IMG/VR virus record: IMGVR_UViG_3300001847_000660
Coordinates: 1 to 29,683 of that record
DNA: 29,683 nt
DNA from: a virus
Direction: 5' to 3' (one strand)
Positions 6,101 through 28,148 of this stretch are shown here, piece after piece (within the stretch, counting starts at the first letter, position 1; each line of letters begins with the position of its first letter). Both the position numbers and the translations under genes were made by a program. The notes under the pieces were generated by a model. It had not been told where the DNA came from. It ran no database searches and worked only from the letters and a program-made list of their open reading frames with translations.

Positions 6101-9100
6101 CTGAAGTTACTAATTATAACCAAATTTTATTCACAAATAGCGTTTATAATAATTCATATGCAATTTCTGGAGTAGGAACTACTACCTTCCAAATTTCTTT
6201 ACGCTCTTTACCTGAAAATTTAAATTATACTTCTTCTGATTGTGATATTATTAAGTATACTACAAATTCTCCAAGAGCTCTTGGTGGAATTAGTAAGATT
6301 AGAACAATATCTCCAGGAACGGGATTTAAAAAGATTCCAGTATTTTATGGAGTAAATTCAGATTCTGGTGAAGGTGCATACTTACTTGCTAAATCTTCAT
6401 CTATTGGAAATATAAATCAAACTAGAATTTTAAATGAAGGGTTTGAATATCCATCAGATAAAACTCTGAGTCCTACTGCAGAAATTCCTACACTTTTAAT
6501 ACTAAAAAATTCAAATACAATTTCAAATATTCAGGTTACTGATAACGGCAAAAATTATACCGTAGCGCCAGATTTAATTATTATTGATTCTGAAACGAAT
6601 CAAAAAATTGATTCTGGAGTACTAATTGCAAAATTATTTGGATCAAGTATCAATTCTGTAGATATAGTCAATCCTCCAAAAGGTCTTCCTTCATTACCTG
6701 TAGAGATTAGAGCAATTAATAATACAAATGGAGTTGGAATTTCAACTATTGCAACTTCATCATCTGGAATTGTTACATGTTATCTAACAACACCCCAAAG
6801 TGGATTCCAGAGTGAGCCATTTGCTGTTGGAGATAAGATTTTTGTTGAGGGAATACAAAAATATGGTAATGAAGGTGATGGATTTAATTCTGAAAATTAT
6901 GGATATCAATTCTTTACTATTACATCTTATGAAAATGCAGCAACTCTATTACCAAGAAAATTAGAATATAATTTATCTGGATTATCTACTAATGTAGGAC
7001 TAGCTAAGACAGTACAAGAATTATATGCTCATATTGTAAATTATAATAATTATCCTAAGTTTGAAGTAATACAAGAACAATCACCATTTATTTTTGGAGA
7101 ATCTTTGTCTGTCCAAAATGAAATTGGATTTGAAAATACAGATTTAAAAGTTGTTGAAAATAATCTTAATTATATTAAAATTTCTGGAAATTATGAAGTT
7201 GATTCGAATCAATTGATTCGTGGAGTTCAATCTGGTAATTTAGCAACAATCAGTGGCGTAGAAAAAACAACTGGATATTTTTCAATTGGATACGGGTCTA
7301 CTCAAAATCTTGGGTGGTCAGATGATATTGGAAAATTGGATGAAGATACTCAAGTTATTCCAGACAATGATTATTATCAAACTCTTTCATATTCTGTAAA
7401 GAGTAATCAAGAATGGAATGATATTGTTACCCCTGTAAACAGTATTTTACATCCAAGTGGATTAAAAAACTTTGCTGATACCACATTAACTAAGAGTGTT
7501 GGTGCTGGTAATACTACAGTAGGTGAATTTACACAAGTACTATATGATATTTTTGATGAAAAACGAGTAGATACAATTAATAATTTTGATTTAGTTCTTG
7601 ATGTTGATACAGTTTTGAACTCATCAAAATATTTAAAATTTAAAAATAAAAGATTATCTGATTATATTGAATGCCGTACTAATAGAGTGCTTTCAATAGA
7701 TGATATAAGCCCAGAATTTTCAAACTCCGATGGAGAGATAACTGATTATTCTGTTGTTTTAGATATTAATCCATCAGACAGATATAACAGATACTTAGTT
7801 CAAATTGTAAGTAGTGATTATACAGAAGTTCAATTTACTGAGATTATTGTTTTGAGTAGTGATGAAAATGTATATACTTTAGAAAAAGCGAGTGTTAGTA
7901 ATGTAAATGAAAAAATTGGAGATATTGAAGGATATGTTGATGGAAATAATAATTTTTATTTAAAATTTGTCCCATATGAACCCTATAATACAAACTATAG
8001 AATAAAAGTTCTTAATGATAATTTTTCTACTTTCTCTAGTGGAATTGGTACCCAATCTATTGGATATGTTGATTTGATAGGATCAAATACTTCTATTTCG
8101 GCAGGTATTACAACATCATTAATAACTAAGAATATAAATGAGATAAAATCCCTTTATTCAAATATTCATATATTAAATAATTCTTCTGGTGAAATGAATT
8201 ATGCTGAAGTGTTTGTAGATCATGATGGAGTAAACACTAATCTTACCGAATTTTATTTTGATTCTAATAGCGAATTAAGTTCTAATTTTATCGGATCTTT
8301 TGGAGCATCAATTTCTGGAGGAATTTTATCATTAAACTATACAAATACCACCAATAATAATATATCAGTTAGAAGTAAAATAATAGGATTTAATACTACT
8401 TCCTCTGGAATATCTACATATAGATTTAAAAAAGTTGGGCAATTAGATGGTTCTGAAAGAACTGTTAATTATGATGTAGAAAGATCGGTTATTTCTTCAG
8501 CATCTACTATTACATCATTTGATATTTCTAAGTTTACTTCAGTTAAATCAACTGTAAGAGTTAGCATTGGTGAAACTAGATCTTTACATCAGGTTATGAT
8601 GATTCAAGATGATAATGATACTTATACCATCCAATATCCATCTTCATCAATAGGTAGTACTTCTGGAATTGGTACTTTTGGAGGATCTCTTTCTCCAACA
8701 ACAGCAAGTTTAATTTTCTATCCAGATTCTGGTCTTATTGGGTCATTTGAAGTTGTTTCTTTTAATGAAAAATTCTATACTGAAATAGATCAAACCAATA
8801 TACCTGCAGATTTAGAATATGCTGGTATTATAGAAAGTATTCATACTGCAAATTATTATGGAGTTAACGCTGATGAAGTAGATCGTTTAGATTTTGATGT
8901 GAATTATCAAGGATATCCAATTTTTATGAAAGAATTTGATCCTTCAGATTCAACCATTCTAAACTTATCTACAGGAGAATTCACACTTACAAATCATTTC
9001 TTTAGCACTGGTGAAAGATTAATCTATAGACCAAAATCGACTTATATTGGAGTTGGAGAAACTTCGGTAGGGATTGGGGCAACTTTAAATTCTGTCGGTG

Positions 9101-12100
9101 TTGTAACAGATCGTTTACCTACAGAAGTTTATGCATATAAGATTAATAATGATAAATTTAAATTATCTACAAGAAAAGAATATGCTCTTGCTGGAATTTG
9201 TGTAACATTTACCTCAGTTGGTGAGGGTAATGCACATCAACTTGAAATGTATAAGAAAAATGAAAAAACTATTATTTCTATTGATAATGTTATCCAATAT
9301 CCAATTGCATACTCTTTAATAAATCATTCTTTAAATAATTATATAAGTATTGGTCAGTCGGATACGATATTTGCGTTAAGTGGTATTTCTTCAATAAGAA
9401 TTGATGATGTATTGAAAATTGATGATGAATATATGAAAGTTAATAATGTTGGTCTTGGGACTACTGCGTCTGGACCAATATCTTTTAGTGGTAGTGTACC
9501 TTTGATAGAAGTTCAAAGAGGATTTGTTGGATCATCAGCAACTTCCCATGCTGATTTATCAACTGCATACATTTATAGAGGTTCTTATAATATTGCAGAA
9601 AATACCCTTTTCTTTACATCTCCACCAAAAGGATCCATTGTAGATCAGTTATCTCCAGATACAGATAATCTTCCAGAAGCAAGATCTAAGTTTAATGGTA
9701 GAGTTTTCCTAAGAAAAGATTATACTAGTAATCAAGTTTATGATAATATTTCAGAAAATTTCACTGGTATTGGTCAAACATATATACTCACTTCACAAGG
9801 AATAAACACTGTTGGATTAGGAACAAGTGGTGGAAATGGAATAGTATTAATTAATGGTATTTTCCAAACACCTACTACTCAAAATAATTTAAATAATAAT
9901 TTCAGAATTCTTGAAAATACAACTGCTGGTATAAGTAGTATTTCATTCTCAGGAATTACTTCTTCTAATGGTTCTATTGCTATTTCTCAATCTGATGTAA
10001 ATATGAATCAACTCCCAAGGGGAGGATTAATTGTATCTCTAGGATCCACTCCTGGATTGGGATATGCTCCTTTGGTTGGTTGCTCAGTAACTGCAAGAGT
10101 TGGTGCTGGTGGATCAATTATTTCAATTGGAATTGGTACAACAGGAAATTGGGGATCTGGATATAGAAATCCAGTTTCAATAGCAATAACTGAATCTGGA
10201 CATACTGGATCTGCGGCAGTAATAACTGCAAATGTTGGTTTTGGCGGAACTCTTGGATTTAATATTGTTAGTGGTGGTAGTGGATATTCAAGACCAACAA
10301 TTAATATATCTTCGCCAAGTTACGAAAATCTACCAATAACTGGTGTTTCTAGGTTGGGAGTTGGAGCAACAACAAGTACTGGAGTTGGTTTATTACTTAA
10401 TGTTGAAGTTGGCGCTAGTTCTACAGTAGGTGTTGGATCAACACTATTTGAAGTAACTGGATTTAAAATTACTAGATCTGGATATGGATTTAAAAAGGGC
10501 GATGTTTTTAGACCTGTAGGTTTGGTAACTGCTTATGGGTTATCTTCTCCAGTATCACAATTTGAACTAACTGTTTTAGATACATTCTCAGATTCCTTTG
10601 GAGCATGGCAGTTTGGTGAATTAGATTACATTGATTCAATCAAAAATTATCAGGATGGATCTAGAACTAGGTTCCCATTGTATTATAATTCATCATTACT
10701 AAGTTTTGAAAGAAGTTCTACAGATCCAGATTCACAATTAATTGATTTTGATTCACTATTACTCATTTTTATCAATGGAGTTCTTCAAGAACCAAAATCA
10801 GCATATCAATTTAATGGAGGAACTTCATTTACATTTACAGAACCACCAAAAGTAGAAGATAATGTTTCAATTTTCTTCTATAGAGGAAGTTCTGAAGATA
10901 GTAAATCTCAGAATGTAACAGAAACTTTAAAAATTGGAGATCAACTTCAGGTTTATAGTAGAAATGATTTACTTGGAATTACTACTACCCAAAATATAAG
11001 AACTATTTCAGATATTAGTTCATCAGATAAAGTTCAAACAGATTTATATACATTACAAGGAATTGATACTGTAAATCAAAAACCAGTAAGTTGGACAAAG
11101 CAAAAAGTAGATAAAATCATTGATGGTATTCTTGTTTCTAAATCTAGAGATTCTATTGAACCTCAAATATATCCAACTGCAAAAATTATTAAATCTATTA
11201 ATACATCTGATACTGAAGTTTATGTTGATAATGCCCAATTCTTCAACTATGAAAATGTTATACCTGGTGAAATTGATTTTAATGCTTTAATTATTTCTGG
11301 AGCATCAGATCCAGTTTCTGCTGCAATAACTGCAACTGTTTCTGCTGCTGGTACAATTCAAACACTTACAATTAATAATGCTGGAAGTGGATATGTTGGA
11401 TCTGCAGTAACAGTCAAAATATCTGCACCTCCATCTGTAGGAGTAGGTATTGGTACCACAGCGACAGCAGAAATCTCTATTGTTGGTGGATCGCTATCGA
11501 TAGTGAATATTACTAATCCAGGATTTGGTTACACTACATCTATTATACCGCAAGTAATAGTACCTCTTCCCGATCCAACATATGAAAATATTAATAATAT
11601 AACTATAGTTCAGGGATTCTCTGGCAATATTACAGGAATTGGTACTACTGTTGGAATCGGAACAGGTTTAGCCATTAACTTTACGTTAGATCCAACACTT
11701 TCACCATTTACAAATCTCACGGTTGGTCAACCAATTTATATTTTTAATACAAAAGTTGGTAGTGGATTAACATCTATTAATTTATTATCAATTGTAATAG
11801 ATCCAGATTCCAGTATTGTTAATACTGGAAGTTTCTTAAGAGTATCAGTATCAAACTCTGGAACTGGATCTGGTTCTGCAGGTGGATTTAATATTGGTAG
11901 ACATATAAGATTTGGATATACTGGAGGATTAGGAAATAGAAGATTTGATCTTAATCCATTAGATCTCACTAATTATAATAATATTACCATAAAAGCAATT
12001 AAAGGTAATAGCACTAATGGTGGAGAAGAACCAGATCCTGGAGAAGATTTACAACTACAATATAGCATAGATAATGGATCTTCATTTACTACAATTGGTA

Positions 12101-12576
12101 ATATTGTTGCAGAAAATGATTCTTCATTCAATAGTTTAAAGGATGTTTCAATTGCGATACCAGATCAAGCTAAAACTTCCTCTACTATTTTTAGATTTAA
12201 TCAACCATCATCAAGTGGATCTTTTGCTGATAATTATGGTATAAAATCTATCATTATAACAAATGATAATAATGTAATTGGTGTTGGAACAACATTCTTA
12301 GATAATATTTACATTATTGATGGTTTTAATAATACAACTGGAATTATTACTTGCAATGTTATGCCAGCATCATCATCACTTGTTGGAATTGCTACAACAG
12401 GATCATCTGTTGGTGAGTTTTCCTGGGGTAAGTTATCTGGATTTACAAGATCTTCTTCTCCAATATCTATAGCAATTTCATCTTATCAAGTTGATGCTGG
12501 TCTGTCCACTTTCCCAACTATTCAGAGAAGAGGATATGGTTTGAGAGACATTGGACCGATTAAAAAGATCTTGTGA
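193..12576 (+). CDS. 7: Giant baseplate wedge protein, gp7-type core with repeat-rich extension and YHYH domain
   Basis: A 4127-residue virion protein, about four times the ~1030 residues of T4 gp7. Residues ~20-60 (EFLKQYYISQEYQGG) and ~205-240 (LYESKGTEESFRILFNVLFG) match the C-terminal part of T4 gp7, which has STKGIEASYKFLFKVLYNEE, so the gp7 core sits at the N-terminus here. The rest is beta-rich modular sequence. An 'ID-x-E-I-x-x-Y...RG' module occurs at ~79-127, ~330-380, ~1533-1585 and ~3057-3130. Glycine-rich 'GxGY' modules occur about a dozen times (from ~733, 922, 1110, 1151, 2037, 2115, 3290, 3323, 3362, 3429, 3730, 3775). An 'H-x-L-x-x-G...YY...HQ' module recurs (834-913, 959-1005, 1813-1875, 2935-3015). 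A YHYH domain lies at ~1230-1350. 'INGVLQEP' modules lie at ~3220 and ~3535. A 'NGGEEPDPGEDL' beta-sandwich-like segment lies at ~3905-4030. Placement between gp6 and gp8 supports the wedge role; the extension probably projects from the baseplate as a host-contact or decorating arm (inference). An AGG lies about 7 bases before the ATG. No signal peptide or membrane segment is visible. Confidence 0.8.
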   Translation: MIQTGFESRIKIQQIIDNQLPEFILDESPKAAEFLKQYYISQEYQGGSVDIAENLDQYLKLDNLIPEVVVGSTTLSTSIDSDDIQITVGSVKGFPSSYGLLKIDDEIITYTGINGNTFTGCVRGFSGISTYNAGITTSNTSNYNGELLFTETKSASHTSGSSVINLSSLFLQEFYKKLKYSLTPGLEDTDFVSDLNVGNFIKEARTLYESKGTEESFRILFNVLFGETPKVINLENNLIKPSSANYIRREVVVAERLSGNPLLLSGQTIKKSTDDDTSASVSEVEIIRRGEKTYYKLLLFVGYNDAFPTITGSFSITSSTKNIESVSVGSSIITVDSTIGFPSSGVIYSGNNEITYQSKSINQFFGCSGVTEEIDTASVIRSNDTYYGYENGDTSKKVELRLTGVLSNFIPLSQSASINEGERISVKNLGTLIENPSENLSYKEIFANSWIYNTSSRYQIDSFSSGSISQVTLKSTIDKSSLKIGDTIEILNRNTEVLIASDLVVTQINGKQVTTDGTFTLNSSFDYDIRRKLNFASSSFVPLEYDKLTSDIQNLYVEDDEYAYVASNSLPSYQINKNIFSYQASSVSGQDLETEKYSIINFINEVSFYTGSEIYYSYSNSPIEGLTEGLYYVEVINDKKQIRLFTSRSFVGSNNYIQFGPLSSGTHKFTLSEQKEGIISAQKILRKFPLNVNIGDGESDLTPVDYVGMLINGVEISGYKTNDKVYYGPLQSVDVLNGGTGYDVINPPNISLSSGSALLQPIIKGSFEKVYVDPQDFDIDVIVSVALTGGNGKGASFEPIIELRKREIAFDAKEVYVGGGIDVTSETITFLTPHGLVDGQPVVYNPKNNSPIGIGTFGAASLFDNTGLTLKKDATYYTKYISDTTIQLYQTLSDYRSGINTVGFTTVGTSGIHQFETDLKKTLTGIRVVNPGNNYQNRKLRVNPVGISTVNSVISFTDHGFLDGELVTYNYQTSSISGLSTSNQYYILKIDNDNFKLANAGAGGTDPSNYQRKKYVKFESAGSGYQIFNYPEIELSVKYSSSKLESNQQRGTITATPIVRGNIVGVYVYENGLDYGSTILNLHKRPKLTIKNGKNAEIKPIIVNGRIEDINIQYGGSEYYSTPDIKVTGSGTGAIIKPIIVDNKLTDVVIVNPGVGYSSIDTDIKVESAGKNAILNPQVRSIPVNKNLLYGEENDAREIANELIIGKSDKLEYSVCGYSENIQNEFGDDGGSHSPIIGWAYDGNPIYGSYGYSDPKDNNSSIKRISSGYSLDTSNIQNRPSSFEPGFFTEDYKFTNDGDLDEYNGRFCVTPEFPNGVYAYFATSEENLFGNLVGQFPYFVGERYRSRFLSENKSLDQTFDFNKSKLIRNTFPYNVNNDYAGNDFIVESNEIINQITLVDSVTTGVVDNYEIISSGDNYKVGDTLLFDQDGTGGAGLSAQVSEVTGKDIIDINTSVTSYNDSIFTWESGDQVKVSVLPYHILNNLDYVTISGFSTSVSTLNGFTQIGVSSFSSSLTKDIPAYSVAGVVTDIYVSRIPDNISIGSSIKIDSEILSVINVYGNDNVLRVVRETTGTAHTSTSVVNYLPNSFTINQSVPYFESKLNNISYFNPKQSIGVGVTSGIGIATDYNIGTRSISISIPTQSIYSPEHQFTTNQQVILRKLSSASAISVANTESSTPFNLPYSGDSQVVYIIKKSNNHIGIVTQVGLTTTTNGLFFIDNGSDEYRYSFESDFTQVKGDIDSIKSTVSISTVHNLISGDKINLTINPNLSVGIGTSGSIKVKFDSLTEKIVINPIQFSSSGINTITNEIYISEHNLNTGDKVVYSSTGTIASGLTTGIYYIYKVDNDNIKLCETLIDSQSNPPLSVDITNAPVSVHQISPINPPLNVIKNNNLVFDLSDSSLSGYGFKLYYDRLFKDEFVSTGTTSIFSITGIGTVGVSTNASLTLNYSNDLPFNLFYNLEKSGYISTADTEVTNYNQILFTNSVYNNSYAISGVGTTTFQISLRSLPENLNYTSSDCDIIKYTTNSPRALGGISKIRTISPGTGFKKIPVFYGVNSDSGEGAYLLAKSSSIGNINQTRILNEGFEYPSDKTLSPTAEIPTLLILKNSNTISNIQVTDNGKNYTVAPDLIIIDSETNQKIDSGVLIAKLFGSSINSVDIVNPPKGLPSLPVEIRAINNTNGVGISTIATSSSGIVTCYLTTPQSGFQSEPFAVGDKIFVEGIQKYGNEGDGFNSENYGYQFFTITSYENAATLLPRKLEYNLSGLSTNVGLAKTVQELYAHIVNYNNYPKFEVIQEQSPFIFGESLSVQNEIGFENTDLKVVENNLNYIKISGNYEVDSNQLIRGVQSGNLATISGVEKTTGYFSIGYGSTQNLGWSDDIGKLDEDTQVIPDNDYYQTLSYSVKSNQEWNDIVTPVNSILHPSGLKNFADTTLTKSVGAGNTTVGEFTQVLYDIFDEKRVDTINNFDLVLDVDTVLNSSKYLKFKNKRLSDYIECRTNRVLSIDDISPEFSNSDGEITDYSVVLDINPSDRYNRYLVQIVSSDYTEVQFTEIIVLSSDENVYTLEKASVSNVNEKIGDIEGYVDGNNNFYLKFVPYEPYNTNYRIKVLNDNFSTFSSGIGTQSIGYVDLIGSNTSISAGITTSLITKNINEIKSLYSNIHILNNSSGEMNYAEVFVDHDGVNTNLTEFYFDSNSELSSNFIGSFGASISGGILSLNYTNTTNNNISVRSKIIGFNTTSSGISTYRFKKVGQLDGSERTVNYDVERSVISSASTITSFDISKFTSVKSTVRVSIGETRSLHQVMMIQDDNDTYTIQYPSSSIGSTSGIGTFGGSLSPTTASLIFYPDSGLIGSFEVVSFNEKFYTEIDQTNIPADLEYAGIIESIHTANYYGVNADEVDRLDFDVNYQGYPIFMKEFDPSDSTILNLSTGEFTLTNHFFSTGERLIYRPKSTYIGVGETSVGIGATLNSVGVVTDRLPTEVYAYKINNDKFKLSTRKEYALAGICVTFTSVGEGNAHQLEMYKKNEKTIISIDNVIQYPIAYSLINHSLNNYISIGQSDTIFALSGISSIRIDDVLKIDDEYMKVNNVGLGTTASGPISFSGSVPLIEVQRGFVGSSATSHADLSTAYIYRGSYNIAENTLFFTSPPKGSIVDQLSPDTDNLPEARSKFNGRVFLRKDYTSNQVYDNISENFTGIGQTYILTSQGINTVGLGTSGGNGIVLINGIFQTPTTQNNLNNNFRILENTTAGISSISFSGITSSNGSIAISQSDVNMNQLPRGGLIVSLGSTPGLGYAPLVGCSVTARVGAGGSIISIGIGTTGNWGSGYRNPVSIAITESGHTGSAAVITANVGFGGTLGFNIVSGGSGYSRPTINISSPSYENLPITGVSRLGVGATTSTGVGLLLNVEVGASSTVGVGSTLFEVTGFKITRSGYGFKKGDVFRPVGLVTAYGLSSPVSQFELTVLDTFSDSFGAWQFGELDYIDSIKNYQDGSRTRFPLYYNSSLLSFERSSTDPDSQLIDFDSLLLIFINGVLQEPKSAYQFNGGTSFTFTEPPKVEDNVSIFFYRGSSEDSKSQNVTETLKIGDQLQVYSRNDLLGITTTQNIRTISDISSSDKVQTDLYTLQGIDTVNQKPVSWTKQKVDKIIDGILVSKSRDSIEPQIYPTAKIIKSINTSDTEVYVDNAQFFNYENVIPGEIDFNALIISGASDPVSAAITATVSAAGTIQTLTINNAGSGYVGSAVTVKISAPPSVGVGIGTTATAEISIVGGSLSIVNITNPGFGYTTSIIPQVIVPLPDPTYENINNITIVQGFSGNITGIGTTVGIGTGLAINFTLDPTLSPFTNLTVGQPIYIFNTKVGSGLTSINLLSIVIDPDSSIVNTGSFLRVSVSNSGTGSGSAGGFNIGRHIRFGYTGGLGNRRFDLNPLDLTNYNNITIKAIKGNSTNGGEEPDPGEDLQLQYSIDNGSSFTTIGNIVAENDSSFNSLKDVSIAIPDQAKTSSTIFRFNQPSSSGSFADNYGIKSIIITNDNNVIGVGTTFLDNIYIIDGFNNTTGIITCNVMPASSSLVGIATTGSSVGEFSWGKLSGFTRSSSPISIAISSYQVDAGLSTFPTIQRRGYGLRDIGPIKKIL

Positions 12577-14178: not shown

Positions 14179-17100
14179 ATGGCTCAAAAAACAAATCTTA
14201 ATGTAAATCCATATTATGACGATTTTAATGAGCCTGATATAGGGGCTAAAGATAAGAATTATTATAAGGTACTATTTAATCCAGGAAAGCCTATTCAGGC
14301 AAGAGAATTAAATACTTTACAATCAATTCTACAAAATCAAGTAGAATCTTTTGGTAGTCATATTTTCAAAGAAGGATCAATGGTGATCCCTGGAAATATT
14401 GTCTATGATAATCAATTTTATTCTGTTAAATTAAATCCTACAAATTTTGGAGTTAATGTAGCATCTTATATTGAAAAATTTGTTGGGAAAAAAATTACCG
14501 GTCAAACTTCAGGAACAACAGCAACAATTCAAAAAGTTCAACTTCCAAATTCTGAAGTTGAATATGCAACTCTTTATGTAAAATATCAAGATTCTGATAG
14601 CAATTTTACATTTAATGAATTTCAAGATGGTGAATTTTTATATGCAAGTGAAAATGTAGAATACTCAGGTACAACTATTATTTCTGGAACTTCATTTGCA
14701 TCTACTATTGCAACTGAAGCAACATCCACTGGATCTTCAGCTTCTATTGGTGAAGGAGTATATTTCATTAGAGGAACTTTTGTAAGAGTTCCAAAACAAA
14801 CTATAATTCTTGATTATTACTCAAATACACCATCATACAGAGTTGGTTTGAGAGTAAGTGAGCAAATTATTACTGCAAAAGATGATTCAACACTCTATGA
14901 TAATGCAAAAGGATTTACAAACTATGCTGCTCCTGGAGCAGATAGATTTAAAATTTCTTTAACTTTAACTAAAAAATTATTAACTGATGTAGAAAACGAT
15001 ACCGATTTTGTTGAACTATTACGAGTTCAAGATGGAAAAATTAAAAAAATTGAAACTAAATCTCAGTATTCTATCATAAAAGATTATCTTGCACAAAGAA
15101 CGTATGATGAATCTGGAGATTATGTTGTAACTCCTTTCCAGTTTTCTTTAAATAACTCCCTTAATAATAGATTAGGAAATGATGGTTTATTCTTCAGTAA
15201 TGAAAAGACAGAGCAAAATAATACACCATCCGATGACTTAATGTGCATTAAGTTTTCACCAGGAAAAGCTTATGTTAGAGGTTACGATATTGAAAAAACT
15301 GGTGTAGAAATAGTAGATGTTCCTAAACCAAGAACAACTCAAACAAAATCTGATGTAAATATCCCATTTGAGATGGGAAATTTAGTTAGAGTAAATAATA
15401 TTTCTGGATCGCCAAAACAAAAAAATACTGTAGAACTTTATAATCAAAGAAAGTCATCATCTACATCTGCAACTGGAACAAAAATAGGTGATGCTAGAGT
15501 TTATACTTGCAATGTAACTGATGCTGCATATACAAATGCAACTACAAATTGGGATTTATATTTGTATGATATTCAAACTTATACTCAATTAACTCTCAAT
15601 CAATCTATTTCTAATATTGAACTTCCAGCAACATCTTTCGTAAAGGGTAAGAGTAGTGGTGCAAGTGGTTATGCATCTGCTGCTGGTGGTGGATCTGCTA
15701 CAGTTTCTTTAAGACAAACTTCTGGAACTTTTATTGTTGGGGAGCAAATTATTATTAATGGATTGGAATTATATCCAAGAACAATTAAGACGATAACAAC
15801 ATATACACCTCAAGATATAAAATCAATATTCCAACCAACTTCAGTATCTGGATTTTCAACTTCTTTTGTTGCAGATACTCAGTTAGATAAACTAACAGCA
15901 TTTGGATTTTCTCCAACTGACACTATTACTATTGAATCATCAGGTGCAGTTTCAGCATCTGGAAAATTATTCAGTGGTATTCCTGTTAATAGTATTATTA
16001 GATATCAAAAACCAGGATCTTCGACAGAAACATATAATAGAGTTTCATCTATTTCTTCAGATGGATCTGTTATGACCTTATCTTCTGTTACTAATGTAAC
16101 AGGAATTTGTGATGGTACTTTACCTGGATCGCAACTTAGAACTACTTTTTCAGTGGGTTCTCCAAAGATTAGAAAAGAAAAGCAAGGATATCTTTATGCA
16201 CAGCTACCAGATTCTAATATTGCATCAACAAATTTAAGTGATTCTATTTTAACATTTAATGCACAATCAAATTCAGTACTAACACCTTCAAGTAATACAT
16301 TAACAGTTTCTACCGGTAATTTTGATCTTGGGATTAGTTCTTCAGTTTCACAGTTCCAAGCATTTGATGAAGAAAGATATTCTATTCATTATTCTGATGG
16401 AACTATTGAAGATTTAACATCAGATAAAGTTACATTATCTAATAATCAGGTAACTTTTTCCAATATTGAAAATAAAAATATTACTTGTATTAATGCTACT
16501 TTTGTAAAAACTGGTATTCAAAGTAAAGTAAAGCAATTTAATCGTAGTAAAACTATTACGGTAAACTTATCAAAATATCCAGAATCTGGAACTGGGATTA
16601 GTACATCTATTAATGATGGTTTAATTTATAATAACTTTTATGGATTGAGAGTTCAAGATGAAGAAATTTGTCTGAAATATCCCGATGTTGTAAAAGTAAT
16701 AGCAGTATATGAATCTTTAAATACTTCAGAACCAGTATTAGATACTTTAAACTTCAATTCAATTGCTAATGTAGATACAAATGCTATCATTGGAGAAAAT
16801 ATTATTGGACAATCTAGTAAAGCAATTGCTAGAGTTGTATCTAAACCATCAGCAAATACTATTGGTATTGTATACTTAAATGCTAATAAATTTGTTGATA
16901 GTGAGAATGTTACTTTTGAAGAATCTAATATTAATACATCTATTGTTTTAATCACCCCAGGAAGTTATAAAAATATTACAAAAAGCTTTACCTTGGATAA
17001 GGGGCAAAAAGAACAATATTATGATTATTCAAAAATTGTAAGAAATTCTGGAGAATCTGCACCTTCTAAACAACTTTTAATTGTATTTGATTATTATTCA

Positions 17101-20100
17101 GTTCCATCTGGAGATACTGGTGATTTATTTACGGTTAATAGTTATACCGAAGAAAGATTTGGATCTGATGTACCTACTGTAGGTAGTAATAATGTAAGAG
17201 CATCTGATACATTGGACTTTAGACCAAGAGTATCTGTATTTTCAAATACAAATTCTTCACCATTTGACTTCTCTTCAAGATCTTTTGGAACAGAACCTAA
17301 ATTAATTCTCTCTCCAAATGAAAGTTCACTAGTTGGTTATGATTTCTATCTTGGTAGAATTGATAAACTTTATCTCGATAAATTAGGAAACTTTATAGTT
17401 TTACAAGGAACACCTTCAACAAATCCTAAACCACCATCAAAACCAGATCAAGTTTTAGAAATTGCTACAATCACTCTTCCACCATATCTTTACAATCCTA
17501 AAGATGCTTTAGTATCTCTAGAAGATAATAGAAGATATACGATGCGTGATATTGGTTTAATTGAAGATAGAGTAGAAAATCTTGAAAGAGTTACATCTTT
17601 GTCACTACTTGAACTTAATACTCAAACACTTCAAATTCAAGATGCTCAAGGATTTAATAGATTTAAAACTGGATTTTTTGTAGATGACTTTAAAAACACA
17701 GATTTAATCAATATAAATGTATCAAAAATTGAAGTAGATCGTGCTAATAACGAATTAACTACGCCAGTAAGTAGAAATAGTATAAGTTTAGTTCCAGTTT
17801 CAGCAGAAGTTTTTACAAATGAAACTTTAGATTTAACTAGTAACTTTGATTTATACGATTCATCAAATGTACAAAAAACTAATGATGCAATTACACTTAA
17901 ATATCAATCAAAGGGGTGGATTGAACAACCTCTTGCAACTAAAGTAGAAAATGTAAACCCATTCCATGTTGTATCTTATAGTGGATCTGTAAAACTTAAT
18001 CCATCTAGTGATAGTTGGATAAGAACCATTAGATTAGAAGATGTAAATATCAATCAAACAAACTGGATTTGGTTGTATGCAACAGGAACTTTCTCAGTTG
18101 TTGGTAGAAAAACAACAACTAATACTGAAGATAGATTACTAGCAAGTGGTGTTGAATTGTATATGAGATCTCGTAATACGGGATTTAATGCTGTTAATAT
18201 GAAACCACTAACGAGAGTATATCAATTCTTGGATGGAAATAGTGGAGTAGATTTTGTTCCAAAACTTGTTGAAATTGCAAGTGATTCTACTCTGGAAAAT
18301 TATGGGGCATCTTCAGCATTTTCTGTTGGGGAAACCGTGGTTGGTTCTTATGGTGGTCAAAATTTAATTAATTTTAGAGTAGCACAATCAAATCACAAGG
18401 AAGGACCTTTTAACTCACCAACTGTAACATATAATATTAATCCATATAATAAGGATGAAAATCTTCCTTCTGCATATAGTTTAACATCAAAAACTCTTAA
18501 TGTAGATGTTAATTCATTATGTTCTGAAGCTCAGGGTCTATATTCTGGATATCTTGTTACTGGAATGAAATTAGTTGGTCAAACTAGTGGTGCTGTTGCT
18601 TATGTAAAAGATCTCAGATTAATTACTGATAATTATGGAGATCTTCAAGGTGCATTTTTCTTAAGAGATCCAAATACATCTCCAGCACCATCAGTTAGAA
18701 TTGCAACAGGATCTAAAGTTTATAAACTTACTTCAAGTTCAACTAATGCAACTCCACTTCCTGGAAGCAAACTTATTTCTGCTGCAGAGACAATTTATAA
18801 GGCAGAAGGAACTTGGGAGCAAAGGCAGCGAATAATTACAACTACAACAAACATTTATTATGTTGATCCTCTTGCACAATCATTCTCTGTCGGTGGAAAT
18901 ATTGAAAGTACAAATGGAAATGCTCCAAATGATGATGCAAATGGTGCATATTTAACTGCAGTAGATCTTTATTTTGCACATAAAGATCCAGGTAACGCCC
19001 CATTAACTGTTGAAGTTAGAACAGTTGAGTTGGGAACTCCAACTAGAAACGTTATTGGAAATCCAGTTACACTCAAACCAAGTCAAATTCAAACTTCTTC
19101 TGATGCATCAGTTGCAACAACTGTGACTTTTGATTATCCAATTTACTTAGCACCAGGTTTAGAATATGCGATTGTTCTTTTAGCACCACAATCCGATCAA
19201 TATGAGGTTTGGATTGCTGAAATGGGAGAAAAGACAGTTAACACTGCCAACCTACCAGATGCAGAAAGTGTAAGATACACAAGACAATTTGCAATTGGTA
19301 GTTTGTTTAAATCTCAAAATGGATCAATTTGGACTGAAAACCAATATCAAGATCTTAAATTTAAACTTTACAAGGCAAACTTTACATCAAAATCTGGAAG
19401 TGTATACTTCCAAAATCCAACTTTAAATGAAAGTAACGGATATGTTCCTAAACTTTCCACCAATCCAGTTAGAACTTTACCTAAAAAGTTTGCAATTGGT
19501 ATAAGCACTGTAACATCCAGTGCAATGATTGGAATTTTAACAACTGGAAGAAAAGTTGCTGATGCTGCAAAACCATTTGATTATGCATATATTGTTGGTA
19601 CTGGAAGTAAAGTAGCATCTGTAGGAGTTACAACTGGAGGATCAAATTACACAAGTACCTCTAATGTAACGACATATCCAATTACTGGAAGTGGAACTGG
19701 TCTAAAACTCAATGTTACAGCAACTAATGGAGTTGTTTCAAGTGTTTCAGTTGTATCTGAAGGTAATGGATATGCAGTTGGAGATGTAGTTGGAATTACT
19801 ACATCTGATATTTCTCCAGCATCAGGAAGAGATGCAAGAATCACTATTACCGGAATAACAGGTTTAGATACTTTATATGTTTCAAATGCACAAGCCGAAT
19901 CATTTACAACTGTAGGTGTTTCAACTCTTGTTTATTATAATGATGCTGGAAGTAGAGTTTCTTTAGCAACAACTACGATTAGATCATCTTCTCCAGTTGG
20001 TGGTGTATATTCTGGTAACTTTATGAAGGTTGATCATTTTGATCATGGTATGTATGCTGCTAATAATCAACTAACATTATATAATGTCCAATCTAACATA

Positions 20101-21375
20101 CCTCCAACAACATTATCAATTCCTCTTGTTTCATCAAATACAACAATAAGTGTAGCATCTACATCTAATTTTAAAATGTTCGAAGGTGTTGTTGTTAGTG
20201 GTTCCAATCCAGGTTATATTAAAATTGAAAATGAAATTATTAAATATGAAGATGTGGGAGTAGGGCAACTTTTAACAATTACTAGAGGAATTGATTCTAC
20301 TCTTGTTTTAGACCATACTACAAATACTCAAGTATACAAATATGAACTAAGTGGTGTTTCTTTAAGAAGAATTAATAAAACTCACGATATTAGTGATACT
20401 GGTAATAATAACGATAGTTATTATATTGAATTTAATAGATCAAACTTTGATTCAAATGCTACTAATAGATCAACTGATGGAAGCTTAACTTCTACTCCAC
20501 AATTATCATTTGATTCCGAACTAACAGCAGGTGGAAATGATGTACGAGCAACTGAAAATATTCAGTATGATGTAGTTATTCCCGAAATTCCATTAATAGT
20601 TCCTGGTTCGGCTACAAGTGCTAATGCACAAATTAGAAGTGTAAGCGGAACGAGTGTAAATGGAATGGAATCTTCTTTCCAAGATCAGGGATATGAAAAT
20701 GTTGAAATTGGTACTCCCAATAAACTTCTGTCAACTAGAATCATTTGCTCCAATATAAATGAAAATACTTATCTAAATGGAACTTTATTACCAAATAGAG
20801 CAAAATCATTAATTACGAAAGTAAATCTATCCACAACTGATAGTAATCTATCTCCTGTAATTTTCTGGAAAAATGCATCTGTTCGATTATTGAGCAATCG
20901 CCTTAATAGTCCAATAACAGATTATATTAATGATGGTAGAGTCAATTCAATCATTGATGATCCACATGCTGCACTTTATGTTTCAAATACAGTTAGGTTA
21001 TCTCAACCAGCAACATCTCTAAAGGTCATTTTAAGTGCTTATAGACATGCTACAGCAGATTTTAGAGTACTCTATAGTTTAATTAGACCAGATTCCAGTG
21101 AAGTAGACCAAGCATTTGAATTATTCCCAGGATATAATAATTTAACAATTGATTCAAATCAAGATGGATACCCTGATGTAATTAATTCAGCAAATAATAG
21201 TGGTCTCCCAGATATATTTGTACCAGCAAGTTTAGAAGATCAATTCTTAGAGTATGAATTTACTGCTAATAACCTTGGAGATTTTACTGGATATACTATT
21301 AAAATAGTAATGTCTGGAACAAATCAGGCATTTGCACCAAGATTTAAAGATCTAAGGAGTATCGCAATTAAATGA
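14179..21375 (+). CDS. DUF4815 baseplate/virion structural protein (functional place of gp9-gp12)
   Basis: 2398 residues. The N-terminus (NPYYDDF at ~10-16, VLFNPGKPIQARELNTLQ at ~31-48, then a segment reading FGSHIFKEGSMVIPG) is the DUF4815 signature of large structural proteins in marine T4-like phages. 'GQTSGT/GQSSKA/GQTSGA' modules recur at ~105, ~489, ~873 and ~1463. A helical segment with RYTMRDIGLIEDRVENLE lies at ~1120-1137, and a VDPLAQSFSVGG motif at ~1561. A GxNY...GNGY pair lies at ~1815-1880 and an 'IENEIIKYEDVG' module at ~2014-2060. The conserved ending (~2260-2398) includes LKVILSAYRHATADFRVLYS and closes with APRFKDLRSIAIK. The gene occupies the position where T4 has gp9, gp10, gp11 and gp12, and no separate versions of those are present. 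It is therefore probably the main peripheral baseplate/tailpin protein that carries or serves as receptor-binding appendages (inference). Confidence 0.85.
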   Translation: MAQKTNLNVNPYYDDFNEPDIGAKDKNYYKVLFNPGKPIQARELNTLQSILQNQVESFGSHIFKEGSMVIPGNIVYDNQFYSVKLNPTNFGVNVASYIEKFVGKKITGQTSGTTATIQKVQLPNSEVEYATLYVKYQDSDSNFTFNEFQDGEFLYASENVEYSGTTIISGTSFASTIATEATSTGSSASIGEGVYFIRGTFVRVPKQTIILDYYSNTPSYRVGLRVSEQIITAKDDSTLYDNAKGFTNYAAPGADRFKISLTLTKKLLTDVENDTDFVELLRVQDGKIKKIETKSQYSIIKDYLAQRTYDESGDYVVTPFQFSLNNSLNNRLGNDGLFFSNEKTEQNNTPSDDLMCIKFSPGKAYVRGYDIEKTGVEIVDVPKPRTTQTKSDVNIPFEMGNLVRVNNISGSPKQKNTVELYNQRKSSSTSATGTKIGDARVYTCNVTDAAYTNATTNWDLYLYDIQTYTQLTLNQSISNIELPATSFVKGKSSGASGYASAAGGGSATVSLRQTSGTFIVGEQIIINGLELYPRTIKTITTYTPQDIKSIFQPTSVSGFSTSFVADTQLDKLTAFGFSPTDTITIESSGAVSASGKLFSGIPVNSIIRYQKPGSSTETYNRVSSISSDGSVMTLSSVTNVTGICDGTLPGSQLRTTFSVGSPKIRKEKQGYLYAQLPDSNIASTNLSDSILTFNAQSNSVLTPSSNTLTVSTGNFDLGISSSVSQFQAFDEERYSIHYSDGTIEDLTSDKVTLSNNQVTFSNIENKNITCINATFVKTGIQSKVKQFNRSKTITVNLSKYPESGTGISTSINDGLIYNNFYGLRVQDEEICLKYPDVVKVIAVYESLNTSEPVLDTLNFNSIANVDTNAIIGENIIGQSSKAIARVVSKPSANTIGIVYLNANKFVDSENVTFEESNINTSIVLITPGSYKNITKSFTLDKGQKEQYYDYSKIVRNSGESAPSKQLLIVFDYYSVPSGDTGDLFTVNSYTEERFGSDVPTVGSNNVRASDTLDFRPRVSVFSNTNSSPFDFSSRSFGTEPKLILSPNESSLVGYDFYLGRIDKLYLDKLGNFIVLQGTPSTNPKPPSKPDQVLEIATITLPPYLYNPKDALVSLEDNRRYTMRDIGLIEDRVENLERVTSLSLLELNTQTLQIQDAQGFNRFKTGFFVDDFKNTDLININVSKIEVDRANNELTTPVSRNSISLVPVSAEVFTNETLDLTSNFDLYDSSNVQKTNDAITLKYQSKGWIEQPLATKVENVNPFHVVSYSGSVKLNPSSDSWIRTIRLEDVNINQTNWIWLYATGTFSVVGRKTTTNTEDRLLASGVELYMRSRNTGFNAVNMKPLTRVYQFLDGNSGVDFVPKLVEIASDSTLENYGASSAFSVGETVVGSYGGQNLINFRVAQSNHKEGPFNSPTVTYNINPYNKDENLPSAYSLTSKTLNVDVNSLCSEAQGLYSGYLVTGMKLVGQTSGAVAYVKDLRLITDNYGDLQGAFFLRDPNTSPAPSVRIATGSKVYKLTSSSTNATPLPGSKLISAAETIYKAEGTWEQRQRIITTTTNIYYVDPLAQSFSVGGNIESTNGNAPNDDANGAYLTAVDLYFAHKDPGNAPLTVEVRTVELGTPTRNVIGNPVTLKPSQIQTSSDASVATTVTFDYPIYLAPGLEYAIVLLAPQSDQYEVWIAEMGEKTVNTANLPDAESVRYTRQFAIGSLFKSQNGSIWTENQYQDLKFKLYKANFTSKSGSVYFQNPTLNESNGYVPKLSTNPVRTLPKKFAIGISTVTSSAMIGILTTGRKVADAAKPFDYAYIVGTGSKVASVGVTTGGSNYTSTSNVTTYPITGSGTGLKLNVTATNGVVSSVSVVSEGNGYAVGDVVGITTSDISPASGRDARITITGITGLDTLYVSNAQAESFTTVGVSTLVYYNDAGSRVSLATTTIRSSSPVGGVYSGNFMKVDHFDHGMYAANNQLTLYNVQSNIPPTTLSIPLVSSNTTISVASTSNFKMFEGVVVSGSNPGYIKIENEIIKYEDVGVGQLLTITRGIDSTLVLDHTTNTQVYKYELSGVSLRRINKTHDISDTGNNNDSYYIEFNRSNFDSNATNRSTDGSLTSTPQLSFDSELTAGGNDVRATENIQYDVVIPEIPLIVPGSATSANAQIRSVSGTSVNGMESSFQDQGYENVEIGTPNKLLSTRIICSNINENTYLNGTLLPNRAKSLITKVNLSTTDSNLSPVIFWKNASVRLLSNRLNSPITDYINDGRVNSIIDDPHAALYVSNTVRLSQPATSLKVILSAYRHATADFRVLYSLIRPDSSEVDQAFELFPGYNNLTIDSNQDGYPDVINSANNSGLPDIFVPASLEDQFLEYEFTANNLGDFTGYTIKIVMSGTNQAFAPRFKDLRSIAIK

Positions 21376-23689: not shown

Positions 23690-25099
23690 ATGGCTCTTAA
23701 TCCCTTTTTCCTACAAGGTTCACCAGGTGAACAACGTCTTGTACAAGATTTGATTAACGAACAACTCAAAATTTATGGAGTTGATGTTGTCTATATTCCA
23801 AGAAAATTTGTAAGAAAGGAAACTATTATAAGAGAAGTAACAACATCAAAATTTGATGATAACTTTGCAATTGAAGCATATATTAATACATATGAAGGAT
23901 ACTCGGGACAAGGGGATCTTCTATCAAAATTTGGAATGCATCTAAAAGATGAATTAGATTTAATTATTTCAAAAGAAAGATTTGAAGAATTTATATCTCC
24001 TTTTTTAGAAACTCCAACTGAAGGTGAAAGTGAAATAGAAATAACAATGAGACCTAGAGAAGGAGATATAGTTTATTTTCCTTTAGGTCAAAGAATATTT
24101 GAAGTAAAGTTTGTTGAACACGAACAACCATTTTATCAACTTGGAAAAACATATGTTTATGAATTAAAGTGTGAATTATTCGAATATGAAGATGAAATGG
24201 GTGGATGGAATAATGTTAATACCACAACAGAAGAAATAGATACTTCATTAGTAAATCAAGGATATATTACAACATTACAACTTATATCTGCCGGATCTCA
24301 AGCACTTGCAACGGCTTATATAAATTCTGGTTACGTAAGAAAAGTTGTTTTAACAAATGATGGGTATGATTACACTTCTACACCCGTAGTATCTATTTCT
24401 ACTGCACCACCTGGAGGAATAAATGCCGAAGCAGTTGCAATTACAACTTCTGTTGCTGGGATTTATTCAATTAAAGAAATTTTATTAATTAGTGCAGGTG
24501 CTGGATATACAGTTACACCAACTGTAAATATTATTGGTGGTGGTGGATCTGGAGCAGCAGCAACTTGTGTATTAGTTAAAGGTTATTCTGGCGTAACTAC
24601 AGTAGGAGTTTCTACATCATCATTTGGACTTGGTTATCCAAAAGCACCAACAATAACATTTGGATCTCCAACAGTAGGAGCAGCCATAACTGCTGTTGGA
24701 AGGGTATCTATTGCAGATACTGGAGTTGTAAAACAAGTACTATTGTCTGATGCTGGTATTGGTTATACATCTAGTCCAATTGTTACTATTGCTCCACCTC
24801 CAGTTTTAACTGGTATTGGAACATTTATCTTTAATGAGGTTGTAACTGGATCTATTTCTAAAGCAACTGCAAGAGTTAAAACATGGGATGCTGGTACGAA
24901 TACTCTTAAAGTTGGAACAACAAATGGAAATTTTGTTTTAGGGGATATTATCGTCGGTTCAGCATCTTCCGCAATTTATTCTCTTGATTTTATTCAAAGT
25001 GCAAAATTTGATGATAAATATGAGGATAATGATCAAATAGAAAAAGAAGCAGATCTTATAGTAGATTTTTCAGAATCAAATCCATTCGGTAATTACTAA
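23690..25099 (+). CDS. 14: Neck protein gp14 with a nested repeat insertion
   Basis: 469 residues against 256 in T4 gp14. Family features: YGVDVVYIPRKFV at ~29-41; YEGYSGQGDLLSKFGM at ~68-83; EGDIVYFP at ~124-131; and EQPFYQLGKTYVYELKCELF at ~145-164. The family ending appears as EADLIVDFSESNPFG at ~453-467. Between them, residues ~197-436 are a block of GY modules (NDGYDYTSTPVV, AGAGYTVTPTV, FGLGYPKAPTI, AGIGYTSSPIV) followed by a 'SKATARVKTWDAGTNTLKVG' module. These resemble modules in the gp7-like, gp8 and DUF4815 proteins and explain the added length. gp14 works with gp13 in head completion; the inserted domains probably project from the neck as decoration (inference). Its stop overlaps the gp15 ATG by one base. 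Confidence 0.93.
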   Translation: MALNPFFLQGSPGEQRLVQDLINEQLKIYGVDVVYIPRKFVRKETIIREVTTSKFDDNFAIEAYINTYEGYSGQGDLLSKFGMHLKDELDLIISKERFEEFISPFLETPTEGESEIEITMRPREGDIVYFPLGQRIFEVKFVEHEQPFYQLGKTYVYELKCELFEYEDEMGGWNNVNTTTEEIDTSLVNQGYITTLQLISAGSQALATAYINSGYVRKVVLTNDGYDYTSTPVVSISTAPPGGINAEAVAITTSVAGIYSIKEILLISAGAGYTVTPTVNIIGGGGSGAAATCVLVKGYSGVTTVGVSTSSFGLGYPKAPTITFGSPTVGAAITAVGRVSIADTGVVKQVLLSDAGIGYTSSPIVTIAPPPVLTGIGTFIFNEVVTGSISKATARVKTWDAGTNTLKVGTTNGNFVLGDIIVGSASSAIYSLDFIQSAKFDDKYEDNDQIEKEADLIVDFSESNPFGNY

Positions 25100-25907: not shown

Positions 25908-26330
25908 ATGAAAGATAATTATGATGGTTTAGATAATGCTCTCAACATTGAAAGTAAAATTGTTGAGGTTGAAGATACTACTACTAAATTAAATGTTATA
26001 CCTTCCCAAGGTCAAGACATTAAAAAAGATTATGAGTATACTCGTGCAAATTTATATTCATTGATTGAAAAGGGGCAAGAGGCAATTAATGGAATTATGG
26101 AACTTGCCGGAGAGGGTGGAAGTCCTAGAGCTTATGAAGTTGCTGGTCAATTAATTAAAAGTGTTGGTGATGTTACAGATAAACTTATTGATCTGCAGAA
26201 AAAACTAAAAGATGTAGAAGAAGAAACTGTAAAAACAACCAATAATGTTACAAATAATGCAGTGTTTGTTGGATCAACATCTGAACTATCTAAGTTACTC
26301 AAACAAGGTTTTCTAAATAATAAAGAGTAA
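25908..26330 (+). CDS. 16: Small terminase subunit gp16
   Basis: 140 residues against 164 in T4 gp16. The central region reads YEYTRANLYSLIEKGQEAIN (~44-63) and then GIMELAGEGGSPRAYEVAGQ (~64-83). This is the helical hairpin core of T4-like small terminases, followed by a long coiled-coil helix (DVTDKLIDLQKKLKDVEEE at ~90-108) and a flexible asparagine-rich tail. It assembles into a ring that recognises concatemeric DNA and regulates the gp17 ATPase/nuclease. It follows gp15 in T4 order. The usual next gene, gp17, is not in the window; two accessory genes follow instead. Confidence 0.88.
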   Translation: MKDNYDGLDNALNIESKIVEVEDTTTKLNVIPSQGQDIKKDYEYTRANLYSLIEKGQEAINGIMELAGEGGSPRAYEVAGQLIKSVGDVTDKLIDLQKKLKDVEEETVKTTNNVTNNAVFVGSTSELSKLLKQGFLNNKE

Positions 26331-26342
26331 ACATATAGTTTG

Positions 26343-28148
26343 ATGAGTTGGTCTGACAAATACAAAAGATCAATAAACTGTGATTCCCCAAAAGGGTTTT
26401 CTCAACGTGCTCATTGTGCTGCTCGTAAAAAAAGAGCAAAAGGTGAACCAACAAAATCAAAGTCACCTTTCAATGAAATGCATGAAGTAAAATCTCATAA
26501 ATCAGTTGAAGAAATTGCAAAGAAACATCGTCTTGAGGTTTCTTTTGTTAAAAAACAACTTGAGATGGGAATTCCTATTGAACATGAGCATACTAAAGAT
26601 AAAGATCTTGCAACAGACATTGCTCTTCAACATTTAGATGAAATTCCAGATTATTATACTCGTTTGAAAAAAATGGAATCAGATGCTAAAAAGCATCATA
26701 AAAAATTTAAAGATGTGAAAGAACATTGTGGTTGTGAAGATAATGCGGTTCAAGAACTTGAAACTGCATTAAAAAAACTAGATAATACATCTTATGATTC
26801 TATTGATACCTTGATGCGTCGTATTATGAAAAAACATGATATGACTGCTAAACAACTTCATAATGCTTTTGTCGATAAACATCATAAAACTCCAGATGAC
26901 TGGATTAATGAAGGAACTCTTCATCATTGGTTTAAAGGTTCTAGATCAAAAGATGGAAAACCTGGTTGGGTTCAGGCAGATGGTTCTCCATGTGCTAATG
27001 AACCAGGAGAAACTAAAACACCAAAATGTTTTAGTAGCGCCAGATTATCAGCATTAAAAAGAAAGGGTGAAAAGGGAGAGTCATTGATTAGGTCTGCAAT
27101 CCAAAGAAAAAGAGCAAAAGATAAGAGTCAACAGGAAAAATCCGGAGCAGCAAAACCAACTAATGTTCCAACCTTTGCAAAAGGTAAAGAAGATCCTAAT
27201 TATGTAAAAGCAGAACCAGGAATTAAAGAAGAAATGGAAATTAACGAAGCACAAAAAGACAAACCAGGTAAAGGCAGCGGTAAAAAAGATGCCTGTTATC
27301 AAAAAGTTAAGTCAAGATATGATGTTTGGCCAAGTGCATATGCATCTGGAGCACTAGTCAAATGCCGTAAAGTTGGTGCTGCAAATTGGGGAACAAAATC
27401 AGAAGATTGTTGGGATGGTTATAAGCAAGAAGGTATGAAAAAGAAAGGTAAAAAAATGGTTCCAAACTGTGTACATGTAAAGGAGGAGCAAGCAATGATG
27501 AGGTATTGTCCAAAATGTCAGAAAGATGAAACTCGTAGTGAGTGTAAGTATGGACCAAAATATTGGGATATGTTTTCAATACCATCATCTTTAACTACAA
27601 ACCAGTTAAAGTACCATATTAATGCTCCACATCCAGGAAACTTTCCTGAGTCATATGATCACGAGTATTCAATGGCTCGTTCTGAACTTTCAACTATTAT
27701 CAAAGCTGCAAATAGAATTAAGAAGAAAGTTAAAAAAGGTGAGGGTGAACTTGAAGCTTGGGTTCAATCAAAAATTACTAAAGCGGCGGATTATATTGAT
27801 ACTGCAGCAGATTACATTGATAGTGGTGAAATGAAAGAAGGTAAATCTTTCAGTCAATTTATGAGTGAAGCAAAGACACCAGCATGGCAGCGTAAAGAAG
27901 GGCAAAGAGCATCTGGAGGATTAAATAAAAAAGGAGTTGCATCTTATCGCAAAGAACATCCTGGATCAAAATTGCAAACGGCAGTAACAACAAAACCATC
28001 TAAACTTAAAGCGGGTTCAAAAGCATCAAATAGAAGAAAATCATTTTGTGCTCGTATGAGTGGAATGAAGAAAAAACTCACTTCGGCAAAAACAGCAAAC
28101 GATCCAAATAGCAGGATCAATAAATCATTAAGAGCTTGGAATTGTTGA
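26343..28148 (+). CDS. Basic multidomain mosaic protein of small phage domains (DUF5661-, DUF5872-, DUF6321-like)
   Basis: 601 residues, very rich in lysine. The ATG at 26343 is chosen over an in-frame TTG three bases earlier; it gives the motif MSWSDKYKRSINCDSPKGFS followed by AHCAARKK. Modules in order: residues ~50-116, with IPIEHEHT and then IALQHLDEIPDYYTRLKKME (resembling DUF5661); ~151-190, ending AFVDKHHKTPDDW; ~193-279, with FKGSRSKDGKPGWVQADGSP and then CANEPGETKTPKC; ~307-355, with KKDACYQKVKSRYDVWPSAY and KCRKVGAANWG (DUF5872-like); a three-cysteine stretch YCPKCQKDETRSEC at 388-401; ~438-498, with SMARSELSTIIKAANRIKKK and AWVQSKITKAADYI; and ~512-601, with TPAWQRKEGQRASGGLNKKG and KSFCARMSGMK (DUF6321-like). 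DUF names are from memory. These modules occur singly in other phage proteins. The basic charge suggests DNA or head association, but no function is established. Confidence 0.85.
   Translation: MSWSDKYKRSINCDSPKGFSQRAHCAARKKRAKGEPTKSKSPFNEMHEVKSHKSVEEIAKKHRLEVSFVKKQLEMGIPIEHEHTKDKDLATDIALQHLDEIPDYYTRLKKMESDAKKHHKKFKDVKEHCGCEDNAVQELETALKKLDNTSYDSIDTLMRRIMKKHDMTAKQLHNAFVDKHHKTPDDWINEGTLHHWFKGSRSKDGKPGWVQADGSPCANEPGETKTPKCFSSARLSALKRKGEKGESLIRSAIQRKRAKDKSQQEKSGAAKPTNVPTFAKGKEDPNYVKAEPGIKEEMEINEAQKDKPGKGSGKKDACYQKVKSRYDVWPSAYASGALVKCRKVGAANWGTKSEDCWDGYKQEGMKKKGKKMVPNCVHVKEEQAMMRYCPKCQKDETRSECKYGPKYWDMFSIPSSLTTNQLKYHINAPHPGNFPESYDHEYSMARSELSTIIKAANRIKKKVKKGEGELEAWVQSKITKAADYIDTAADYIDSGEMKEGKSFSQFMSEAKTPAWQRKEGQRASGGLNKKGVASYRKEHPGSKLQTAVTTKPSKLKAGSKASNRRKSFCARMSGMKKKLTSAKTANDPNSRINKSLRAWNC

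Follow-up and report, generated by a model that had tools for sequence, protein, structure and literature searches.

The gene at positions 26343-28148 of a 29,683-nucleotide stretch of viral DNA (IMG/VR record IMGVR_UViG_3300001847_000660; hereafter, the window) raises the question of what a phage does with a long basic protein made of many small domains and encoded beside its terminase.

Modules of the window protein and their surroundings

The protein was divided by eye into nine segments (D1 to D9), profiles were made from 86 loci, and the architectures of relatives were read from these profiles. The features of the gene and its upstream neighbor are listed below, with the TTG codon at 26340 counted as residue 1 and a slash marking a predicted cut.

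25908-26330, plus strand: T4-like small terminase gp16 (neighbor), Pfam and PHROG matches
26343-28148, plus strand: whole gene, 601 amino acids from the ATG at 26343; the ORF from the TTG spans 26340-28148
26343-26459, plus strand: D1, 'SDKYKRSINCDSPKGFSQRAHC' start module (profile); also stand-alone in six loci
26490-26714, plus strand: D2, DUF5661 (PF18905), 54.5 bits against a gathering cut-off of 27
26718-26906, plus strand: D3, ending KHHKTPDDWI (profile); D2/D3 junction without a cleavage-like site
26904-26912, plus strand: predicted prohead-protease-like site I-N-E/G at the D3/D4 junction, E191 (motif)
26919-27155, plus strand: D4, SKDGKPGW module (profile); separate gene in other phages
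27240-27248, plus strand: predicted site I-N-E/A at the D4/D5 junction, E303 (motif)
27255-27395, plus strand: D5, KKDACYQKVKSRY...KCRKVGAANWG module (profile)
27402-27488, plus strand: D6, CWDGY...PNC module (profile)
27498-27593, plus strand: D7, YCPKCxKDETRSEC cysteine module (profile)
27609-27833, plus strand: D8, SMARSEL helical module (profile); D7/D8 junction without a cleavage-like site
27843-27869, plus strand: capsid-targeting-like sequence KSFSQFMSE, internal, residues 502-510, predicted cut after E510 (motif)
27870-28145, plus strand: D9, DUF6321 (PF19846), 92 amino acids, net charge +21, 61.6 bits against a cut-off of 28.5

The ATG at 26343 is likely to be the start codon; relatives of the protein begin with M-[SNG]-WSDKYK, and the window protein begins with MSWSDKYK. 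The protein is lysine-rich, as described in an earlier note made from the sequence (15.9% K), with a pI of 9.6 and a net charge of +46. The net charges of eight other proteins of the window ranged from -3 to -32, one of them, a fiber protein, being incomplete at the window end. The gene of this T4-like, cyanophage-type virus begins 12 bases after the small terminase gene ends, which bears out the position beside a terminase given in the same note. The genes upstream are gp15-, gp14-, and gp13-like, and a collagen-like fiber gene, incomplete at the window end, lies downstream. Among phage records, the closest full-length relative was that of Synechococcus phage S-SRM01, with 50% identity, which likewise follows the small terminase gene.

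The neck protein at 23690-25099 has a Gly/Thr/Ser-rich extension past the neck domain, and this extension matched virion, baseplate, and fiber PHROGs. Two very large upstream ORFs, at 14179-21375 and 193-12576, encode 2398 and 4127 amino acids, respectively, and large ORFs at a similar place in S-SCSM1 are labeled VrlC-like and baseplate wedge virion protein.

DUF5661 and DUF6321 were the sole families recognized by Pfam, both above the gathering score, in agreement with two labels of the earlier note; its third label, DUF5872-like, was not borne out, with no Pfam match to DUF5872 in the protein up to E = 1 (six families listed). Together with at least six further modules found by profiles, these two make the protein a chain of at least six small domains, as the note had proposed. 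Both Cys/Trp motifs said to end domains were present; KCRKVGAANWG does end D5, whereas FCARMSGMK lies within DUF6321. The C-terminal half of the protein matched PHROG 727 (E 2.4e-94) and PHROG 3477 (E 3.4e-67), and an NCBIfam search of the protein gave nothing useful. An enzymatic role was considered and dropped after the Pfam search.

The predicted structure models reveal no known fold. The full-length model had a mean pLDDT of 64.8 and a pTM of 0.24, and its Foldseek matches in the PDB had E values of 2.4 or worse. The DUF6321 model (pLDDT 85.4, pTM 0.53) had no match in the PDB, and its significant matches in a viral structure library were mostly proteins named DUF6321. A sequence search of solved structures returned one helical design (E 0.009), which was judged to be a chance match.

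Recurrence and shuffling of the modules in relatives

The 86 loci contained 49 architectures, some of them truncated at contig ends, and the order and number of modules varied widely. In the relatives, modules are reordered, lost, or encoded as separate genes. In a second scan, for DUF6321 alone, 76 ORFs across 80 loci had it as their sole module; for 35 of these 76, a distinct ORF no more than 1.5 kb away encoded D4, D5, or D6. The domains thus recur independently, a check that had been suggested with the original proposal. The gene order in loci L109 and L115 was large terminase, D5, D4, D9, and portal. In L164 and L167, D4 is located inside a cytidylyltransferase and the next gene is DUF6321; the L164 protein also has a zeta-toxin-like kinase part. 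A tenth module, D10, is slightly acidic and absent from the window protein; 18 long relatives contain it, and in 32 cases it forms a short gene of its own, directly after the relative as judged by coordinates.

A translated search detected DUF6321 in 527 of 50,697 phage records, most of them from phages of Synechococcus, Prochlorococcus, and Pelagibacter. A genome collection had it at 29 loci, nearly all of them on contigs of metagenome-assembled genomes. With these numbers, the description of the domains as phage-specific holds broadly. The literature searched did not mention DUF6321 or DUF5661, and DUF5872 appeared there in one algal-virus paper only.

Two further variations were observed. 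An alternative C-terminal module ending AYWANKVKW, preceded in several cases by a targeting-like linker, replaces DUF6321 in L021, L031, L052, L054, L066, L067, and L069. In the L052 ORF (2381-4474), a Hint/intein-like insert splits D5 (its match to Pfam Hint, E 7.8e-4, falls short of the cut-off).

Targeting-like sequences and module junctions

According to two reviews (PMC9026906, PMC3012670), the T4-type capsid targeting sequence consists of 10 residues, and gp21 cuts after L/I-x-E. In the T4 record, IPII and IPIII start with MKTYQEFIAEA and IPI starts with MKTFKEF. In the window protein, K502-SFSQFMSE-A511 immediately precedes DUF6321 (KSFSQFMSE/A versus MKTYQEFIAE/A of T4). The N-terminus of the window protein does not fit M-K-[ST]-[FY]-x-x-F-x-x-E, and the motif sits inside the chain. 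In the literature searched, 'capsid targeting sequence' and 'cyanophage' co-occurred only in a review. In T4 itself, a 54-residue frame on the minus strand (18966-19130; L190 1357-1521) has an IPI-like start, MKTFKEFIKED, and belongs to PHROG 1823.

Module-bearing ORFs of the 86 loci (38,490 residues, with the window protein, which is also L001, counted twice) contained 21 matches to the pattern [ST][FYL]xxF[MIVL]xE; the other ORFs (318,599 residues) contained 37, of which 32 were starts of the D10 gene. Stand-alone D1 genes started with MKTFK[QEH]FQE in all six loci, and stand-alone D10 genes had a targeting-like start in 32 of 32. The single DUF6321 genes of L164 and L167 start with MKTFIQFIEE and MKKFIQFIEE, and that of L168 with MRAEEFITE; the other single DUF6321 genes mostly lack a targeting-like start and begin directly (e.g., MAKTPAWQ). 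Among the multi-module ORFs bearing D9, only 21 of 56 contained the full targeting-like motif.

The junctions of 77 multi-module ORFs were examined by scoring [LIVMF]xE within the ten residues that precede each module and shuffling the linkers; junctions identical over these ten residues were counted once. This hydrophobic class was used since strict L/I-x-E was too narrow for the junctions, and both were counted. The site was present at 49/52 D9 junctions (shuffle mean 13.9, maximum 23), 36/53 D7 junctions (11.0, 20), 26/45 D4 junctions (6.2, 13), 33/44 D5 junctions (9.5, 19), 10/10 D2 junctions (1.7, 6), and 16/16 D10 junctions (4.5, 10). D6 junctions showed little enrichment (17/48; shuffle mean 8.0, maximum 17), and D3 and D8 junctions showed none (1/7; 1.0, 4 and 3/49; 2.5, 8, respectively), indicating that D2-D3 and D7-D8 each act as one joined unit. 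At the D4, D5, D9, and D10 junctions combined, 125 of 161 had a site, 64 with L or I and 61 with V, M, or F, and 36 had none; the residue after the Glu was A in 32, D in 25, G in 24, E in 17, V in 14, S in 7, and another in 6. Because the relatives are not independent, these junction and motif counts overstate the number of events. In the window protein, two I-N-E sites (191 and 303) and one M-S-E site (510) fall at junctions, compared with the L/I-x-E rule of T4 gp21.

In a second set of loci, 8 of 9 ORFs whose locus contained a T4-like gene had a site in the 12 residues preceding DUF6321, versus 6 of 69 ORFs whose locus lacked such a gene (Fisher p 1.1e-6; one ORF, cut at its start, was left out). 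Confining the contrast to ORFs in which 8 or more residues precede the DUF6321 core gave 8 of 9 versus 6 of 33 (p 0.0002). L164 and L167, whose phage kind is not settled, account for two of the six site-bearing ORFs without a T4-like gene. An alternative junction type, [ST]xWRx[ED][LFM], was found in 17 D9-bearing ORFs; its one match near a gene start was an antisense frame. The new part of these results is that the modules are divided by T4-type targeting or prohead-protease-like sequences.

Virion labels, head signatures, and competing explanations

SSCSM1_29, the homologue in S-SCSM1 (D4-D5-D6-D7-D9, net charge +29), carries the record label 'virion protein'. The S-SCSM1 record contains 48 proteins with a virion label by count, versus 45 virion proteins identified by mass spectrometry in the S-SCSM1 paper. 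SSCSM1_29 is among 15 proteins with the bare label 'virion protein', versus 13 of unknown function in the paper, and its detection in virions is therefore likely, not certain. The homologues of S-B43 and S-P4 are labeled structural. S-CREM2 ORF137, matched to the window gene by homologous position only, was detected by four peptides.

A cytidylyltransferase was reported in virions of S-SCSM1, S-SM1 (T4-GC190), and S-CREM2. This protein had an MK-x-F-x-x-F-x-x-E start in 7/7 cyanophage records, S-CREM2 not being among them (MKSFLQFLKE, MKSFSQFLTE, MKSFLNFFSE, MKNFHQFITE, MKKFSAFLNE in two, and MKNFNSFLTE). The narrower start pattern MK[ST]FxxF misses the MKKF and MKNF cytidylyltransferases; hence, a census was made with M-K-x-F-x-x-F-[hydrophobic]-x-E in 59 records chosen out of about 175 loci. 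It yielded 34 matches, with at least one in 23 records, and the reversed pattern yielded none. No match was found in two podophage records or in the included records with MAKTPAWQ-kind DUF6321 genes. The 30 translated matches were 15 D10 genes, eight cytidylyltransferases, one DUF6321 gene, and six others, including orphans with net charges of +37, +23, and +10. In S-SCSM1, only 1 of the 48 virion-labeled proteins had such a start; the signature catches few virion proteins, as would be expected if it marks head cargo only. With the narrower pattern, basic orphans with targeting-like starts and no PHROG match were also seen in S-SRM01 (L182 2094-2924, L191 1501-2517, and L197 1501-2844; net charges +32, +41, and +43, respectively).

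As for the protease, gp21 of S-SCSM1 matched Peptidase_S77. The gp23 arms of 7/7 cyanophages carry L-x-E, with A or T as the next residue, ahead of a variable arm (FLAE/A, FLSE/A in two, LLSE/A, NLME/T, and ILTE/T in two), with the cut position inferred from T4. A 61-residue protein with a virion label, SSCSM1_97 (L088 43121-43306; S-SCSM1 93121-93306), resembles the mature N-terminal arm of gp23, and short gp23-arm matches outside gp23 were also seen in S-B68 and S-B43.

Among known systems, T4 IPI, IPII, and IPIII resemble the window protein, which is probably head-related as they are, in being strongly basic and equipped with an MKTYQEFIAE/A-type sequence. However, they are small single proteins of 95-193 amino acids with this sequence at the N-terminus, whereas the window protein has many modules and carries it internally. 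Since the window protein does not itself begin with a targeting sequence of the T4 type, it is not simply a T4 internal protein; by analogy, it may work like a set of them in one chain. The cyanophage virion cytidylyltransferase / NMNAT (T4-GC190) shares the targeting-like start and carries D4 in L164 and L167, but it is an enzyme, and no enzyme domain was recognized in the window protein. D9 also occurs in the members of T4-GC119, located downstream of gp15 or gp16; T4-GC119, PHROG 727, and PHROG 3477 have no function label, and their module order and number differ from those of the window protein. The T4 core proteins gp22 and gp67 and head proteins of giant phages undergo several cuts after Glu in short motifs, according to PMC9026906 and PMC5694885. 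No sequence relation of these to the window protein was found among Pfam or PHROG matches, and, unlike them, its pieces are shuffled, conserved modules.

We consider that the window gene probably encodes a shufflable precursor of head-internal virion proteins, cut by gp21 during head maturation. A head-cargo precursor best explains why T4-type targeting or prohead-protease-like sequences stand between the modules. Small, mostly basic modules, which are single genes in relatives, would have been fused into one chain in which most junctions bear either a hydrophobic-x-Glu site like those cut by gp21 or a putative capsid-targeting sequence of the T4 type. The precursor or its pieces would be targeted to and enter the prohead core, gp21 would cleave at the module junctions as the head matures, and the modules would remain in the head beside the DNA, possibly in contact with it, and may be ejected into the cell. 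Against this reading stand the N-terminus, which is not of the T4 type, the putative nature of the internal targeting-like sequence, the restriction of strict L/I-x-E to 64 of the 161 junctions, and the slightly acidic charge of D10, which is the most frequent of the relatives that begin in a targeting-like way.

The joined modules may instead form an uncut DNA- or shell-associated head protein, with the junction signatures as gene-fusion relics of formerly separate targeted proteins. The occurrence of the same domains as separate genes with targeting-like starts and the many junctions that fail the strict rule fit this explanation, but relics should decay, and yet the Glu and the hydrophobic residue are kept where linkers vary in length and sequence; D10 inserts, another junction type, have the site too, at every one of their junctions. 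We regard it as rather unlikely. A DNA-packaging accessory that works with the terminase and is not a stable part of the virion is improbable: the gene directly follows the small terminase gene, and in L109 and L115 the large terminase and portal genes flank D5, D4, and D9, but homologues carry the virion label and the targeting-like sequences point to the prohead core. The earlier note had suggested an internal head protein or a packaging accessory; the former is favored by the virion and structural labels, the basic charge, and the T4-type appearance of the junctions, and the latter is, as said, improbable. A role as a neck, tail, or fiber-associated structural protein, which the gp13-gp16 neck and terminase cluster and the downstream collagen-like fiber gene might suggest, is very improbable, given the strong basicity of the protein, unlike that of the neck, tail, and fiber proteins of the window, and the presence of the DUF6321 module in phages whose tails differ, podophages among them.

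A broader picture can be offered, tentatively and as a possibility we hold with some doubt: T4-like cyanophages may use an evolvable cargo polyprotein, whose exchangeable modules, each bounded by capsid-targeting or prohead-protease sequences, would be loaded in the head, cut into separate small proteins, and delivered with the DNA as a multi-part kit that acts in a new host. The same signal may mark head cargo more widely, with the cytidylyltransferase and the strongly basic orphans as examples. Many virion proteins of marine T4-like phages are without an assigned function. With a readable N-terminal or internal signature that predicts entry into the head, sequence would suffice to list head cargo, and the way in which modules are fused and shuffled in this protein suggests how phages exchange such cargo.
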